From NCBI GenBank assembly GCA_947447355.1, contig CANFJF010000010.1:1-64000 (forward strand): a stretch of DNA of 64,000 nucleotides, written 5' to 3'. The stretch's first letter is position 1; each line of letters begins with the position of its first letter. The translations under genes were made by a program, and so were the position numbers. Origin of the DNA: Comamonadaceae bacterium. GTDB lineage: Bacteria > Pseudomonadota > Gammaproteobacteria > Burkholderiales > Burkholderiaceae_C. The notes beneath the pieces are model-generated. The model was not told where the DNA came from. It saw only the letters and a list, made by a program, of their open reading frames with translations, and ran no database searches. Below, in pieces: positions 1 through 10,196 of this stretch.

Positions 1-525
1 CTGTTCAGTGGTTTGTTGCCGGCGGGTGGCAGATTGGTGACCTTGCACAGTTGGGTGTATCGCCATGAGCCGTCTGACGAACCGACTCGCTTGCAGTCAT
101 TTCGCGTACGCGAATACGTCCGAGTGGGTGCGCCAGACGTTGTCGTTCAGTGGCGAGACATGTGGTTACAGCGCAGCTTGAAACTATTGCAGGCGCTTGG
201 ATTAGCGGCGAAAAGTGATGTTGCTTCTGATCCATTTTTTGGTCGGATCGGCAAGATGATGGCCGCAGATCAAACCGACCAACGCCTCAAGTTTGAAATT
301 TTGACCCCTGTCATTTCGATAGAAAAACCGACGGCGGTGTGTTCCTTCAATTGGCATCAGGATCACTTCAGCAGCAAGTTTGGCATTCGTCAGTCTGACA
401 CCACCCTAGCCCACACCGCTTGCCTTGGTTTTGGCCTTGAGCGCGTCACGCTGGCGTTGATAAAAACCCATGGTTTCGAACCCAAAAAATGGCCTGATGC
501 AGTCAGATCCCAATTATGGAGCTGA
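1..525 (+). CDS. Amino acid:[carrier protein] ligase, C-terminal part (cut by window edge)
   Basis: The reading frame is open to base 1, so the N-terminal half lies outside the window. The visible ~174 residues look like the catalytic core of the seryl-tRNA synthetase-like enzymes that load an amino acid onto the phosphopantetheine arm of a small carrier protein instead of a tRNA (the Bradyrhizobium Bll0957 type). Seen: a conserved FNWHQDHF stretch, then AHTACLGFGLERV, which has the form of class II synthetase motif 3 with its Arg and a nearby Cys that could be a zinc ligand, and a WPDAVRSQLW tail. There is no tRNA-binding coiled-coil arm in the visible part. The stop overlaps the DUF1839 start by 10 bases, suggesting translational coupling. 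The carrier protein gene should lie upstream. The family call is fairly sure; the amino acid used cannot be read from this fragment. Confidence 0.75.
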   Translation: MFSGLLPAGGRLVTLHSWVYRHEPSDEPTRLQSFRVREYVRVGAPDVVVQWRDMWLQRSLKLLQALGLAAKSDVASDPFFGRIGKMMAADQTDQRLKFEILTPVISIEKPTAVCSFNWHQDHFSSKFGIRQSDTTLAHTACLGFGLERVTLALIKTHGFEPKKWPDAVRSQLWS

Positions 526-1523
526 CCTGCATTGAAGCTTGGCCGGGTCTGCGTGCAAAGAGTTATGAGCGTCACGACCTGCATCATCATGACTGCTTGT
601 GGCCGGAAAAGAACTGCTACACCGACGTCTGGATAGAGCTTGTTCACACACTTGGGTGTGACCCGATGGCGATGTTTGCATTCACCCACACAGCCGACTT
701 CGAAGGAGACCAGTGGACATTTTTCAAGCCAGTGCACGCAGAACTTCGAGATCTGTACGGCATTGATGTCCAGGAGTTGACGGTCTGGCGACCACTGCTG
801 GAGCATGCTCAAGAGTATTTGTCTGCTGGCAAGTTTATTTGTTGCGAAGTAGATGCCTATTACTTGCCTGACACGGCCGGCACGGACTACAAAAACCAAC
901 ATTCAAAGACCACTATTTTGATGGCCCGCCTGGATGCGCCATCTCAACAATTGGGCTACTTTCACAACGCTGGTTATTTTGAACTGTCAGGCGATGATTT
1001 CGCGAATTTATTCCGAACGACCGGTGCGCCCGATGCGTCCTACTTGCCGCCCTACGCCGAATTTGTTCGCGTCGATCGACTGCATCGGCAGTCGCCGTCA
1101 GCGCTGGCCAAACACTCATTTGAGCTGCTTCAACAGCACTTTAAAAATCGGCCTCACACCAACCCGTTTTCCCGCTTTGCACAGCGCTTGCTGCATGATC
1201 GAGATGCCCTACAGACAAGCACGCTTTCACGCTACCACGCTTGGGCGTTTGCATCCATTCGACAAGCCGGTGCGGCGTTTGAACTGGCAGCCGCCCATCT
1301 TCGGTGGTTGGCGGGTTGGGGCTACCCGGGATTGGGAGAGGCCGCCGAGTGCTTTGACAGCATCTCAGCCGCTAACAAAACCTTGATTCTCAAGGGCGCA
1401 AGAGCCGTCAATTCAGGCCGGGCATTGGATGCAACTGAATTACTGGCCAGCATGGAGGAAGCTTGGGAGTCTGGCATGGCGCTGATTCAACAGTCGCTGA
1501 CACCGGAGCCTGAGATGGCGTGA
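516..1523 (+). CDS. DUF1839 family protein
   Basis: A 335-residue soluble protein with no signal peptide or membrane segment. It matches my recollection of DUF1839, a family of unknown function usually encoded beside amino acid:carrier-protein ligases and their small carrier protein. Recognisable traits are the N-terminal CIEAWPGL and YERHDLH segments, the NCYTDVWIEL stretch, and a Cys-rich central CCEVDAYYLPDT motif. The ATG at 516 lies inside the end of the ligase gene, so the two are probably one transcript. The first half resembles a papain-like or transglutaminase-like fold in residue pattern (Cys, then His and Asp further on), but that is only a guess. Its 3' end overlaps the 3' end of the convergent histidine kinase gene by 37 bases. 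Confidence 0.7.
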   Translation: MELTCIEAWPGLRAKSYERHDLHHHDCLWPEKNCYTDVWIELVHTLGCDPMAMFAFTHTADFEGDQWTFFKPVHAELRDLYGIDVQELTVWRPLLEHAQEYLSAGKFICCEVDAYYLPDTAGTDYKNQHSKTTILMARLDAPSQQLGYFHNAGYFELSGDDFANLFRTTGAPDASYLPPYAEFVRVDRLHRQSPSALAKHSFELLQQHFKNRPHTNPFSRFAQRLLHDRDALQTSTLSRYHAWAFASIRQAGAAFELAAAHLRWLAGWGYPGLGEAAECFDSISAANKTLILKGARAVNSGRALDATELLASMEEAWESGMALIQQSLTPEPEMA

Positions 1524-2635
1524 ACAGTCATTGGCAACAGCAAAGGCAACTGGAAGCGAGCGCTCAGTGTAGTGCCGCATTGTTGACTGGATTTCACCGT
1601 GAACTCCCCGCCTTCAGCTTCGACACGGTAATGCATGACGAGCAATCCCAGCATAGAAATACGCTCGGACGTGGCGTCGAAACCAACACCGTCATCCGTC
1701 ACGCTAATTTGCGCCTGTCCGTCAGTGTTCGAGGACAAAAGCACCCTCACATTACTGGCCTTGGCATACGCAGCCACATTCACCAGTGCCTCTTGCACCA
1801 AGCGGTAAATGGTGAGTTGAACGGCAGGTTTTAGAGCCACGTCATCCAGCTCTGCATCCACCCTGATGCTGTTCTCACGGGTGAAATCGCCGATCAAAAT
1901 CCTCAAGGCCTGCACCAGTCCGAGGGAGTTCAGGGATGAAGGCCGCAGGTCTTCAATCATGTGCCGCTTGCGGTCAATGCCCTTGTCCATCATCTCCGTG
2001 AAGTGTGTGAATCGAGCGGTAATTTCAGGCGACAGTGGGGCTAAGGCCGACTTCAGGCGTGCCACGTCGAACTTAGCGGAAGTGAACAATGCGCCAAGGT
2101 CGTCATGCAAGGCTATGGCCATACGATTTCGCTCCTCCTCCCTAGAGAGTTGCAGATGACGATTCAACTCCGTTAGCTCGGCAGTACGGTGTTTAATCTG
2201 CTGATTAAACGACTGCGTCAGCGCCTGTAGCGCAGCTTCACTGCTCTTTAAAGCTTGTTCAGCACTTTTGCGTTCGTCTATGTCTTCTGTCGCGCCATAC
2301 CAGCGGGCAATAGCTCCGGAACTGTCGCGTTGCAGCAGAGCACGTGTGCGCATCCAGCGGTATTGGCCATTTCGCATGCAGAGCCGATGTTCGACATCAT
2401 TGAGCTCGCCAGACTGGACGGCGCAACGCCAAGTTTCTGAAACTTGGGACCGATCGTCCGGATGAACGGAGTCTTGCCAAGCCATGCCAAAACCACTCTT
2501 GCCCGTCCACTCGTTCCAACGATCGCTGAGATAGTCCACCTGACCGTCGGTACCGGCAGTCCAAACGGCATACGGGTTAAGGTTCAATGCGGTCCATCCA
2601 TAGCGTTTGATGTCAGGCAAGTCAAATCCCTTCAA
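1487..2635 (-). CDS. PAS domain sensor histidine kinase (NarL-type partner class)
   Basis: A predicted cytoplasmic kinase of 382 residues with no transmembrane helix. Residues ~13-120 form a PAS/PAC sensor (WTGKSGFGMAW, VHPDDR, RWYGATEDIDERK). A coiled coil covers ~120-160. A HisKA_3 dimerisation domain follows, with the phospho-acceptor His in ALHDDLG. A HATPase domain ends the protein, with QEALVNVAAYAKAS and VTDDGVGFD. HisKA_3 kinases normally pair with LuxR/NarL-type regulators, but none is next to this gene. The usual His of the N box (NVxxHA) is Tyr here, and the last glycine box is loose (LLVMHYRV), so activity may be altered. The start is uncertain: the longest frame begins with TTG. 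The signal is unknown. Confidence 0.85.
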   Translation of the reverse strand: MKGFDLPDIKRYGWTALNLNPYAVWTAGTDGQVDYLSDRWNEWTGKSGFGMAWQDSVHPDDRSQVSETWRCAVQSGELNDVEHRLCMRNGQYRWMRTRALLQRDSSGAIARWYGATEDIDERKSAEQALKSSEAALQALTQSFNQQIKHRTAELTELNRHLQLSREEERNRMAIALHDDLGALFTSAKFDVARLKSALAPLSPEITARFTHFTEMMDKGIDRKRHMIEDLRPSSLNSLGLVQALRILIGDFTRENSIRVDAELDDVALKPAVQLTIYRLVQEALVNVAAYAKASNVRVLLSSNTDGQAQISVTDDGVGFDATSERISMLGLLVMHYRVEAEGGEFTVKSSQQCGTTLSARFQLPLLLPMTVHAISGSGVSDC

Positions 2636-8439: not shown

Positions 8440-9624
8440 TCACGCGACGAGCTTAGCAAGCGCTTGTTCCAGGTCGGCCTGAAGGTCTGCCACAGACTCC
8501 AGTCCAACTGAAAAACGAACCAATCCGCCTGGGTACGGCCACGCTTGCGTGCGCATGCTTTGAATGTCGTAGGGCACGCACAGGCTCATCGGGCCGGCCC
8601 AGCTGTAGCCCAGTTTAAAAAACTTCAAACTGTCGCAAAACAGGTCAATTTGCGCTTGGCTGATCTCGGGCTTGAAGATGACGCTGAACAAGCAGGCGGC
8701 GGCGGTGCAATCGCGCAGCCAAGCGGCATGGCCTGGTGAGCCGGGCAAGGCCGGATGGCGAACTTCGGCAATGGCGGCTTGCCCTTGCATCCACACGGCC
8801 AAGGCGCGCGTAGAGACGTCCTGCGCCCGGTAGCGCAGCGTCATGCTGGCGAGTCCGCGCAGCACCGCTTCGGCGTCGTTGCCGGCCACACCGTAGCCGA
8901 CGCGCATATTACAAAAGTGAACTTGTTGATGCAAGGCCTCGTTTTGCGTGACGACCGACCCCATCAACACATCAGCGCCGCCGCTGGGGTATTTGGTCAA
9001 GGCATGCACCGAGACATCTACACCCAAGTCAAAAGCATTGAAAGCCAGGCCGGCGCCCCACGTGTTGTCGAGGACACTAACGATGCCTTTAGGATGCACC
9101 GAACTATATGACTTGATAACAGCGATCAGCGCCGGCAAGTCGGGGAATTCAAGCGTGATAGAGCCCGGTGCTTCGAGCCAAACCAAACGCGTTTTGGCAC
9201 TTATTTTCTGGCGCAAATCGGCCGGATCCATCGGGTCGTAATAGCGGTGGCTAATGCCCCAAGCTTGCATCTCATGCTCTGCCAGCGTCTTGTTGGGGCC
9301 GTAGGCGTTGTCGGGGATCAGCAGCTCGTCACCGGCTTGCAAGAAGGCCATGTTGGCGAGTGCCACGGCGGCCAGTCCGCTGGGCACCAAGGTGCAATAT
9401 CGCCCGCCCTCTAAGGATGCTATGCGCTCTTCAAGGGTGAAGGTGGTGGGCGTGCCGTGCAGCCCGTAGGTGTAGCCATTTTTGTGTTTCCATTCGCGCT
9501 GACGCAAGGCCGCGACACTTGAAAAAATCACAGTCGATGCACGGTGCACCGGAACGTTGACGCTGGCAAAGCCTGCCGGCGCCTGATAAGGATGATGAAT
9601 CAGCTGAGTGGAAAGGTCTTGCAT
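8440..9624 (-). CDS. metC: Cystathionine beta-lyase
   Basis: A 394-residue PLP enzyme of the Cys/Met metabolism family, which cleaves cystathionine to homocysteine, pyruvate and ammonia in methionine biosynthesis. The Schiff-base lysine is Lys211 in HALTKYPSGGAD. PLP-binding elements NGYTYGLHGTPT (~49-60), the SGLAAVALANMA segment (~82-93) and VLDNTWGAGL (~184-193) are present. Sequence favours the MetC/MalY-like beta-lyase branch over cystathionine gamma-synthase, though related enzymes differ little in sequence. ATG at 9624. It is separated from the phosphoribosyltransferase gene by 47 bases with no clear terminator. Confidence 0.88.
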   Translation of the reverse strand: MQDLSTQLIHHPYQAPAGFASVNVPVHRASTVIFSSVAALRQREWKHKNGYTYGLHGTPTTFTLEERIASLEGGRYCTLVPSGLAAVALANMAFLQAGDELLIPDNAYGPNKTLAEHEMQAWGISHRYYDPMDPADLRQKISAKTRLVWLEAPGSITLEFPDLPALIAVIKSYSSVHPKGIVSVLDNTWGAGLAFNAFDLGVDVSVHALTKYPSGGADVLMGSVVTQNEALHQQVHFCNMRVGYGVAGNDAEAVLRGLASMTLRYRAQDVSTRALAVWMQGQAAIAEVRHPALPGSPGHAAWLRDCTAAACLFSVIFKPEISQAQIDLFCDSLKFFKLGYSWAGPMSLCVPYDIQSMRTQAWPYPGGLVRFSVGLESVADLQADLEQALAKLVA

Positions 9625-9671
9625 GCCTGCATGTTACAGACCTTAGTGCCCTTAGCGTCCATCGCGTCTTT

Positions 9672-10196
9672 TTAGACTTTCCACTTCTCCATCAGGTGTG
9701 ATGGTCGCAAGGCATCGTAGCCTTCAAAGGGTTGGTGAATCCACGGGTTGGTCGGCAAGGACTCAACTGAATAGTCAGGCTGAAAACTCGATACGCCCTT
9801 GGTCCAGATCACCGCACTGCGCAGTTCGGTGATGGGCTTGTAGTTGTTGCGCAGCTGATGAATCACCGCGTTCAGCGTGTGGCCGGTGTCGGCCAGGTCA
9901 TCAACCAGCAAGACCTTGCCGGCGATTTCGCCCTTGGGCGTGGTGATGAAGCGGGCAATGTCCAGATTGCCCTGCACTGTGCCGGAATCAGCGCGGTAAG
10001 AACTGGTCGACATGATGGCCAGCGGCTTGTCAAAAATACGCGAGAGGATGTCGCCAGGGCGCATACCGCCGCGCGCCAGACACAAGATGGTGTCAAACTG
10101 CCAATCCGATTGGTGAATCTTGATCGCCAGTTTTTCGATCAGGTTATGGTACTCGTCGTAACTCACGTAGAGGTGTTTGCCGTCTTCAGTCAACAT
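9672..10196 (-). CDS. Phosphoribosyltransferase (hypoxanthine/guanine salvage type)
   Basis: A 174-residue type I PRTase. The PRPP-binding loop is VLLVDDLADTGHT with two acidic residues, and an earlier CLARGGMRPGDIL segment forms the pyrophosphate loop. It probably converts hypoxanthine, xanthine or guanine to the nucleotide, given its position just after purA. The exact base cannot be read from sequence. The ATG at 10196 is chosen; an in-frame TTG at 10208 would add four residues. Salvage next to adenylosuccinate synthase makes sense as IMP is the shared intermediate. Confidence 0.85.
   Translation of the reverse strand: MLTEDGKHLYVSYDEYHNLIEKLAIKIHQSDWQFDTILCLARGGMRPGDILSRIFDKPLAIMSTSSYRADSGTVQGNLDIARFITTPKGEIAGKVLLVDDLADTGHTLNAVIHQLRNNYKPITELRSAVIWTKGVSSFQPDYSVESLPTNPWIHQPFEGYDALRPSHLMEKWKV

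Follow-up and report, generated by a model that had tools for sequence, protein, structure and literature searches.

The operon at the start of the window

The window analysed here, a stretch of 64,000 nucleotides of contig C10 from the genome of a Comamonadaceae bacterium (179 contigs in all), opens inside a gene resembling those for amino acid:carrier-protein ligases, and this gene runs directly into one for a DUF1839 protein. An earlier note on this DNA proposed that the DUF1839 protein acts on, or moves, the aminoacyl-carrier product of the ligase. We describe the conserved operon to which the two genes belong and argue that it encodes a carrier pathway in which DUF1839 probably transfers a carrier-borne acyl group to an amine to make an amide. 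The argument is built on what was computed here, namely gene content and its conservation, the predicted fold, the conserved residues and a swap of the loading enzyme; from these we infer every reaction, amino acid, acceptor and product named below. The window genes are:

1..525, plus strand: C-terminal 174 residues of the ligase, seryl-tRNA synthetase (SerRS)-type class II core, open at the left edge, stop codon at 523-525
516..525, plus strand: 10-base overlap between the ligase stop and the DUF1839 start
516..1523, plus strand: DUF1839 gene, 335 amino acids, proposed carrier-dependent amide synthase (aminoacyl transferase)

The product of 1-525 scores 250 bits against NCBIfam NF005479 ('amino acid--[acyl-carrier-protein] ligase'), where it covers profile positions 147-316 of 318, and the DUF1839 protein matches Pfam PF08893 with 349 bits (E 3e-104); neither match is due to chance. 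The 250 bits fall short of the family cut-off of 357 bits because the contig end cuts the ligase gene. The remainder lies on contig C62 (207.7 bits, profile positions 17-191), the last 149 bases of which are identical to window bases 1-149. The joined frame encodes 303 amino acids, is free of stops and begins near the catalytic core; the two parts were scored separately, with no score for the joined protein as a whole to set against the cut-off. This one exact overlap and the stop-free frame across the join, together with a matching gene order on a single contig in three near relatives (L071-L073), make C62 very probably the upstream neighbour of the window contig. The following genes lie there (coordinates in locus L003, which is C62:9700-19684):

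L003:9450-9985, plus strand: N-terminal part of the ligase
L003:8233-9453, plus strand: flavoenzyme with the acyl-CoA dehydrogenase (ACAD) fold
L003:7551-8018, minus strand: phosphopantetheinyl transferase (PPTase) of the holo-ACP-synthase type
L003:7276-7530, minus strand: carrier protein, 84 amino acids, attachment serine in GMTSH (NF005480, 97.7 bits, cut-off 72)
L003:4708-7266, minus strand: glycoside hydrolase family 2 (GH2) enzyme
L003:2907-4901, minus strand: tandem hydrolase

The earlier note identified the first gene as an amino acid:carrier-protein ligase, which both parts of the joined gene bear out, and reported the 10-base overlap, which we find at the same bases; it also advised looking upstream for a carrier of about 80-100 residues and an acyl-CoA dehydrogenase. 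Both kinds of gene are present, accompanied by the PPTase, and beyond what the note envisaged, the module additionally includes the GH2 enzyme and the tandem hydrolase.

Conservation and distribution

To survey the operon more widely we used 80 loci, the best 80 of 557 confirmed candidates from a contig scan, and the counts accordingly favour relatives of the window. By record title they span Proteobacteria, Myxococcota, Planctomycetes, Verrucomicrobia, Chloroflexi, Gemmatimonadetes, Acidobacteria and Actinobacteria. In 65 of the 80 the gene immediately upstream of DUF1839 is the ligase, and 48 of these 65 adjacent pairs overlap; the commonest overlap is 4 bases, assuming that translation starts at the codon closest to the ligase stop. 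The GH2 gene is the most frequent of the other neighbours (75 loci), followed by the ACAD (69), the carrier (64), the tandem hydrolase (48) and the PPTase (35); GH2 is directly downstream of DUF1839 on the same strand in 56 loci, and carrier, ACAD, ligase, DUF1839 and GH2 are all present in 55. The operon is real and conserved. Ligase-model matches of less than 400 bits within ACAD genes were set aside as artefacts, the model being over-long; five loci with a stop inside the tblastn range were omitted from alignment A2.

Co-occurrence of ligase and DUF1839, a further expectation of the earlier note, is seen in a sample of 299 genomes from the phylum: 12 contain DUF1839 and 37 have a ligase match, which in 20 of them is over cut-off, and all 12 DUF1839 genomes have the ligase match. 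The corresponding hypergeometric value of 2e-12 ignores genome kinship and is not used as a probability. Within the host's family the distribution is patchy: 23 of 299 genomes carry DUF1839, one of these as a fragment of 23 bits, and 16 of 141 genera are represented. In two Rhodococcus loci (L140 and L149) the ligase, ACAD and tandem hydrolase lie some 6 kb beyond the DUF1839-GH2 pair, and the remaining Rhodococcus genomes tested have their ligase elsewhere in the genome.

The module is also found on plasmids, where nine of ten regions examined, out of 59 matching records, have the order carrier-ACAD-ligase-DUF1839. On two Rhizobium gallicum plasmids, L174 (NZ_CP092345.1) and L179 (NZ_CP017104.1), it comes after a series of nif genes that ends with fdxB, from which a single small gene separates it, and in L179 a gene for 1-aminocyclopropane-1-carboxylate deaminase comes after GH2. 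There is no DUF1839 match among phage records, leaving a phage origin unsupported.

The ligase and its probable replacement

The core of the ligase is homologous to type-2 SerRS and to Bradyrhizobium Bll0957 (the two parts score 250 and 207.7 bits against NF005479). In a near relative, L072, residues 25-300 of 303 align with the Bll0957 structures 3mey and 4h2w (263 bits to 4h2w), so that about 24 residues precede the core match; no tRNA-binding arm or domain was found ahead of the core, as the earlier note had anticipated. Cys124, Glu167 and Cys270 (joined numbering) are kept in at least 95% of 68 ligase sequences, and we take them to be the zinc ligands Cys-Glu-Cys of this family. Those encoded in the window, with one further segment, are:

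112..114, plus strand: Glu167, proposed zinc ligand, presumed from the family
421..423, plus strand: Cys270, proposed zinc ligand, presumed from the family
241..297, plus strand: stretch GRIGKMMAADQTDQRLKFE, proposed carrier-recognition helix from alignments, its role in part presumed

The stretch GRIGKMMAADQTDQRLKFE aligns with a segment in which 3mey and 4h2w are unlike; 4h2w was solved with an Atu2571-type carrier. Nine positions distinguish module ligases from Bll0957-like ligases, two of which (269 and 272) lie beside the proposed zinc ligand Cys270. The carrier itself is closest among solved structures to the 4h2w carrier and to Atu2571 (2jq4), at 53 bits, with the carrier solved for Bll0957 at just 23 bits. 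Related ligases load glycine or alanine, according to one report (PMC5370406). We strongly infer that the ligase of the module loads an amino acid on its carrier.

Further clues come from genomes in which the DUF1839 locus lacks a ligase. Thirteen such genomes were found: nine have a ligase elsewhere and four (L094, L110, L136 and L145) have no match, while retaining carrier, ACAD, DUF1839 and GH2. In L110, a stand-alone amino-acid adenylation enzyme (TIGR01733, 350 bits, cut-off 317) is encoded about 6.6 kb from DUF1839 on the opposite strand, and the same enzyme is present in the other three genomes at 81, 69 and 65% identity (enzyme loci L206-L209). A search of 21 ligase-bearing DUF1839 genomes (3 + 18) gave nothing above 37% identity, and at E <= 1e-120 the enzyme was found in none of the 299 phylum genomes, with up to five candidates scored per genome and the three hits from the other ligase-less genomes as positive controls. 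The four ligase-less DUF1839 proteins form no single group, and their nearest relatives include the ligase-bearing L101, L114, L126 and L127. This scatter, combined with an otherwise rare adenylation enzyme, argues that an unrelated enzyme expected to have the same activity, one that would load the module carrier, probably took over the loading step on more than one occasion, or restored it after a loss. Such a replacement would in turn argue that carrier loading with an amino acid is what DUF1839 depends on.

The DUF1839 protein

The AlphaFold model of DUF1839 (mean predicted local distance difference test score, pLDDT, 93.3) has the predicted fold of CcbD, AziU3 and CtaG over its whole length, with a papain-like N-terminal part and a helical C-terminal part. 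AziU3/U2 is the best Foldseek match, and by VIA the Z scores are a near tie (CcbD 19.2, AziU3 18.1). No sequence link to solved structures was found for DUF1839, and the comparison with other Pfam families gave only a weak TniQ match, below cut-off, in one of three proteins. The residues conserved among 81 sequences are:

615..617, plus strand: Cys34, proposed nucleophile, where the first long helix begins, 81 of 81
909..914, plus strand: Thr132-Thr133, one of which is the proposed triad hydroxyl residue, Thr or Ser at both positions in 81 of 81
963..965, plus strand: His150, proposed catalytic His at the position normally held by the acid, 81 of 81

DUF1839 has already been placed in the papain-like superfamily, with a triad C(T/S)H in which, by published modelling, the His and Thr/Ser have swapped places; the same paper offers the guess that the protein acts at the cell wall, in a kind of glycan processing that depends on acyl-CoA (PMC10318531). 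We propose that His150 is the triad His of that work. Glu111, Asp113, Arg249, Gln250, Lys288 and Arg296 are conserved as well and are candidates for sugar and carrier contacts. The fold is predicted to be that of enzymes acting on carrier-bound amino acids, which fits the suggestion of the earlier note that DUF1839 acts on the aminoacyl-carrier. One genome (G255; loci L017 and L048) has a second DUF1839 copy, which possesses the Cys and lies elsewhere, about 4.5 kb from a tandem hydrolase gene.

The other enzymes and the flanking genes

The flavoenzyme has the ACAD fold, and neither sequence nor structure rankings split dehydrogenases from ACAD-fold oxygenases, the model of the flavoenzyme giving a tie. 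A Glu at either of what we take to be the two catalytic positions of ACADs is present in none of 21 rows (12 DUF1839 loci, 9 Bll0957-like loci), a result that is alignment-dependent, whereas an acidic residue stands there in 11 of the 12 host ACADs aligned with them, which are the best 12 among 37 matches. Loss of this Glu would fit a glycyl-carrier substrate, because a glycyl group has no beta carbon to desaturate.

The GH2 enzyme is by homology closest to beta-mannosidases (5n6u, 179 bits). Its nucleophile, Glu518, is kept in 71 of 71 sequences and its acid/base, Glu437, in 65 of 71 (otherwise five Asp and one Gln). The halves of the tandem hydrolase best match exosortase A-associated hydrolase 2 and then hydrolase 1, with scores below both cut-offs. 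In the first domain GxRxG replaces the nucleophile motif (Arg in 48 of 49), and the second has GxCxG (Cys in 49 of 49). Dependence of the module on an exosortase was considered and dropped, genome G000 having no exosortase match. Among exosortase-type hydrolase 2 proteins over the cut-off (L162-L168), three of four have GLR[SL]G at the expected nucleophile site, and ORFs (open reading frames) beside some of them, unscored as hydrolase 1, have GLCDG or GICSG; by these motifs that hydrolase pair may comprise one dead and one Cys enzyme.

Downstream, DUF1839 is followed in the window by one convergent gene:

1487-2635, minus strand: PAS-HisKA_3 sensor kinase

The 3' ends of the two genes overlap by 37 bases. 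The scanned window genes beyond DUF1839 (this PAS histidine kinase, a short-chain dehydrogenase, chromate transporters, an rRNA methylase and others) look unrelated, and DUF1839 is therefore the end of the module. Farther upstream on C62, L004:7719-9899 (minus strand, cut at the locus end) encodes a fusion of a YjbH exopolysaccharide protein and a PAP2 phosphatase domain. A survey of flanks covered 169 ORFs (93 + 76) from 330 at 48 chosen loci, taking the four longest per locus and dropping those above 900 amino acids. Glycosyltransferase and sugar-transferase matches are frequent among the 25 families listed per scan but occur in a minority of the ORFs (Glyco_transf_4, 10; Bac_transf, 5); the survey had no random-flank control and we draw no conclusion from it.

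A possible pathway and its alternatives

The following scheme, which we consider probable as a whole, would account for these genes. The carrier would be armed by the PPTase, and the ligase would activate a small amino acid with ATP (glycine or alanine in characterised relatives) and load it on the carrier arm. The ACAD-fold flavoenzyme would then probably oxidise the carrier-bound aminoacyl group, at a position and in an order that we can only suggest; we hold this step with moderate confidence, two loci having no such enzyme. DUF1839 would take the acyl group onto Cys34 and pass it to an amine, giving an amide by a ping-pong reaction like that of CcbD/LmbD, and this transfer is the best-supported reading of predicted fold and context. 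The acceptor could be a glycoside or a sugar, with an amino sugar the likeliest choice, and it would be trimmed or released afterwards. A sugar is suggested because the next genes encode a beta-mannosidase-like GH2 enzyme with both catalytic acids and a hydrolase with a Cys motif; given the position of GH2 downstream of DUF1839 and the precedent of CcbD, we regard a sugar acceptor with moderate confidence. That DUF1839 acts on an aminoacyl-carrier is very likely; that it does so by amide-forming transfer is probable; that the acceptor is specifically an amino sugar is conceivable, with the chances somewhat against it.

A number of observations weigh against this scheme. The link of DUF1839 to CcbD, CtaG and AziU3 is by predicted fold alone, a search for sequence similarity to them having found none; the triad looks rearranged (Cys-Thr/Ser-His, as published modelling has it, against Cys-His-Glu/Asp); and the fold family includes enzymes, AziU3/U2, that we take to do other chemistry. 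The DUF1839 copy in the operon of L017, not among the 81, has lost its Cys (ANRH replaces TNCY). All 12 module ACAD rows lack the classical Glu, and L077 and L142 have carrier, ligase, DUF1839 and GH2 with no ACAD seen. The hydrolase was found in 48 of the 80 loci and the PPTase in 35, and GH2 is missing from five; contig ends explain these gaps only in part. Nine of the 20 genomes with an over-cut-off ligase in the phylum sample have no DUF1839, and a Rhizobium plasmid, L177 (NZ_CP071635.1), has a lone DUF1839 gene at 8956-9942 beside ParB and conjugation genes, in an incomplete gene table. As to the replaced ligase, the adenylation enzyme is within the DUF1839 locus only in L110 and outside the fetched locus in the other three genomes, where no module-type carrier match and no other shared gene occur within about 9 kb of it; the four genomes may also be incomplete.

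DUF1839 could instead be a thioesterase- or peptidase-like hydrolase that frees the carrier-bound (oxidised) amino acid or edits misloading, with no amide made; we consider this unlikely. Slightly less likely again is that DUF1839 modifies the carrier-bound amino acid in place, for example by cyclisation, leaving release to a separate enzyme. AziU3/U2, the best Foldseek match, presumably cyclises in azinomycin assembly, as such a role would have it, but VIA places CcbD about one Z unit above AziU3, close to a tie.

An operon that degrades or remodels a glycan, with GH2 and the hydrolase as its core and the carrier and ligase merely recycling an amino acid, would be near to the published glycan-processing guess (PMC10318531), and GH2 is indeed the commonest neighbour of DUF1839. 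An ATP-using ligase, a carrier and a PPTase are, however, the gear of synthesis, and activation seems needed because the four ligase-less genomes hold the otherwise rare adenylation enzyme; we judge this reading improbable. The idea that the first gene is an ordinary serine-tRNA ligase in an accidental neighbourhood draws on weak matches to serine--tRNA ligase models (65 and 52 bits) and has next to no chance of being right. It is already contradicted by the 250 bits to the carrier ligase and by the conserved operon, and we ruled out a tRNA synthetase on the missing tRNA-binding arm and the wrong family scores.

Returning to amide formation, a broader picture may be sketched, tentatively. A non-ribosomal, non-NRPS (nonribosomal peptide synthetase) assembly line might consist of an ex-tRNA synthetase or the free adenylation enzyme that replaces it, of a free carrier and a flavin oxidase, and of an amide synthase that has the papain fold and a rearranged triad. 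It would attach a small amino acid, in oxidised form, to an amino sugar, and its product in about eight bacterial phyla would be a glyco-amino acid metabolite or a glycan decoration of a class yet to be described. Aminoacylated carriers of this family would then have their use in this assembly line.

Amino acid:carrier-protein ligases were reportedly described in 2010 by Mocibob. A 2022 review still described the loaded carrier as having no known role (PMC9437257), and a conserved operon with a predicted amide synthase is a concrete, testable answer to what it is used for. If the operon works as proposed, DUF1839, until now without a function, would acquire a likely role, and an unseen product would be expected in many environmental and plant-associated bacteria, including those with the two nif-adjacent Rhizobium gallicum plasmid modules. 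While ligases and carriers of these kinds are known, what appears new, as far as our literature searches reach, is the pathway, together with the role that we propose for DUF1839, and no paper on this operon was found in the open-licence literature.

Comparison with known systems

The closest characterised relatives are Bradyrhizobium Bll0957 (3mey, 4h2w) and Atu2571 (2jq4), which fall in the families of the module's ligase and carrier, at 263 and 53 bits, and share with the module an ACAD beside the ligase and the lack of a tRNA-binding arm. Unlike the window module, all nine Bll0957-like loci examined (L060-L068) are without DUF1839, GH2 and the tandem hydrolase. They have an ACAD-ligase pair, with a divergent carrier in seven of nine, and an acetyltransferase-like ORF (unscanned) follows in three.

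Exosortase A-associated hydrolases 1 and 2 (TIGR03100 and TIGR03101) are matched below cut-off by the halves of the tandem hydrolase, which shares GLRxG at the expected nucleophile with the three hydrolase 2 proteins noted above. It differs from the exosortase-associated pair in uniting both hydrolases in one protein beside a carrier module.

With CtaG of closthioamide and AziU3/U2 of azinomycin biosynthesis, DUF1839 shares the predicted fold over 272-288 residues, in pathways that differ. The residues C11, H128 and D144 of CtaG, taken from the names of variants, suggest the canonical triad order there.

The lincosamide system, in which CcbD/LmbD works with a stand-alone adenylation enzyme and a carrier, differs from the module in having no sequence similarity to DUF1839 and other neighbours; the triad is probably rearranged in DUF1839, and loading in the module is usually by the SerRS-like ligase. 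In a 2015 paper, LmbD/CcbD were said to have no database relative and this kind of enzyme was taken for a product of lincosamide evolution alone (PMC4351081). We propose, from the predicted fold, that DUF1839 works like the CcbD/LmbD-type amide synthases, without claiming it as a member, which would extend the LmbD/CcbD kind to a large family.
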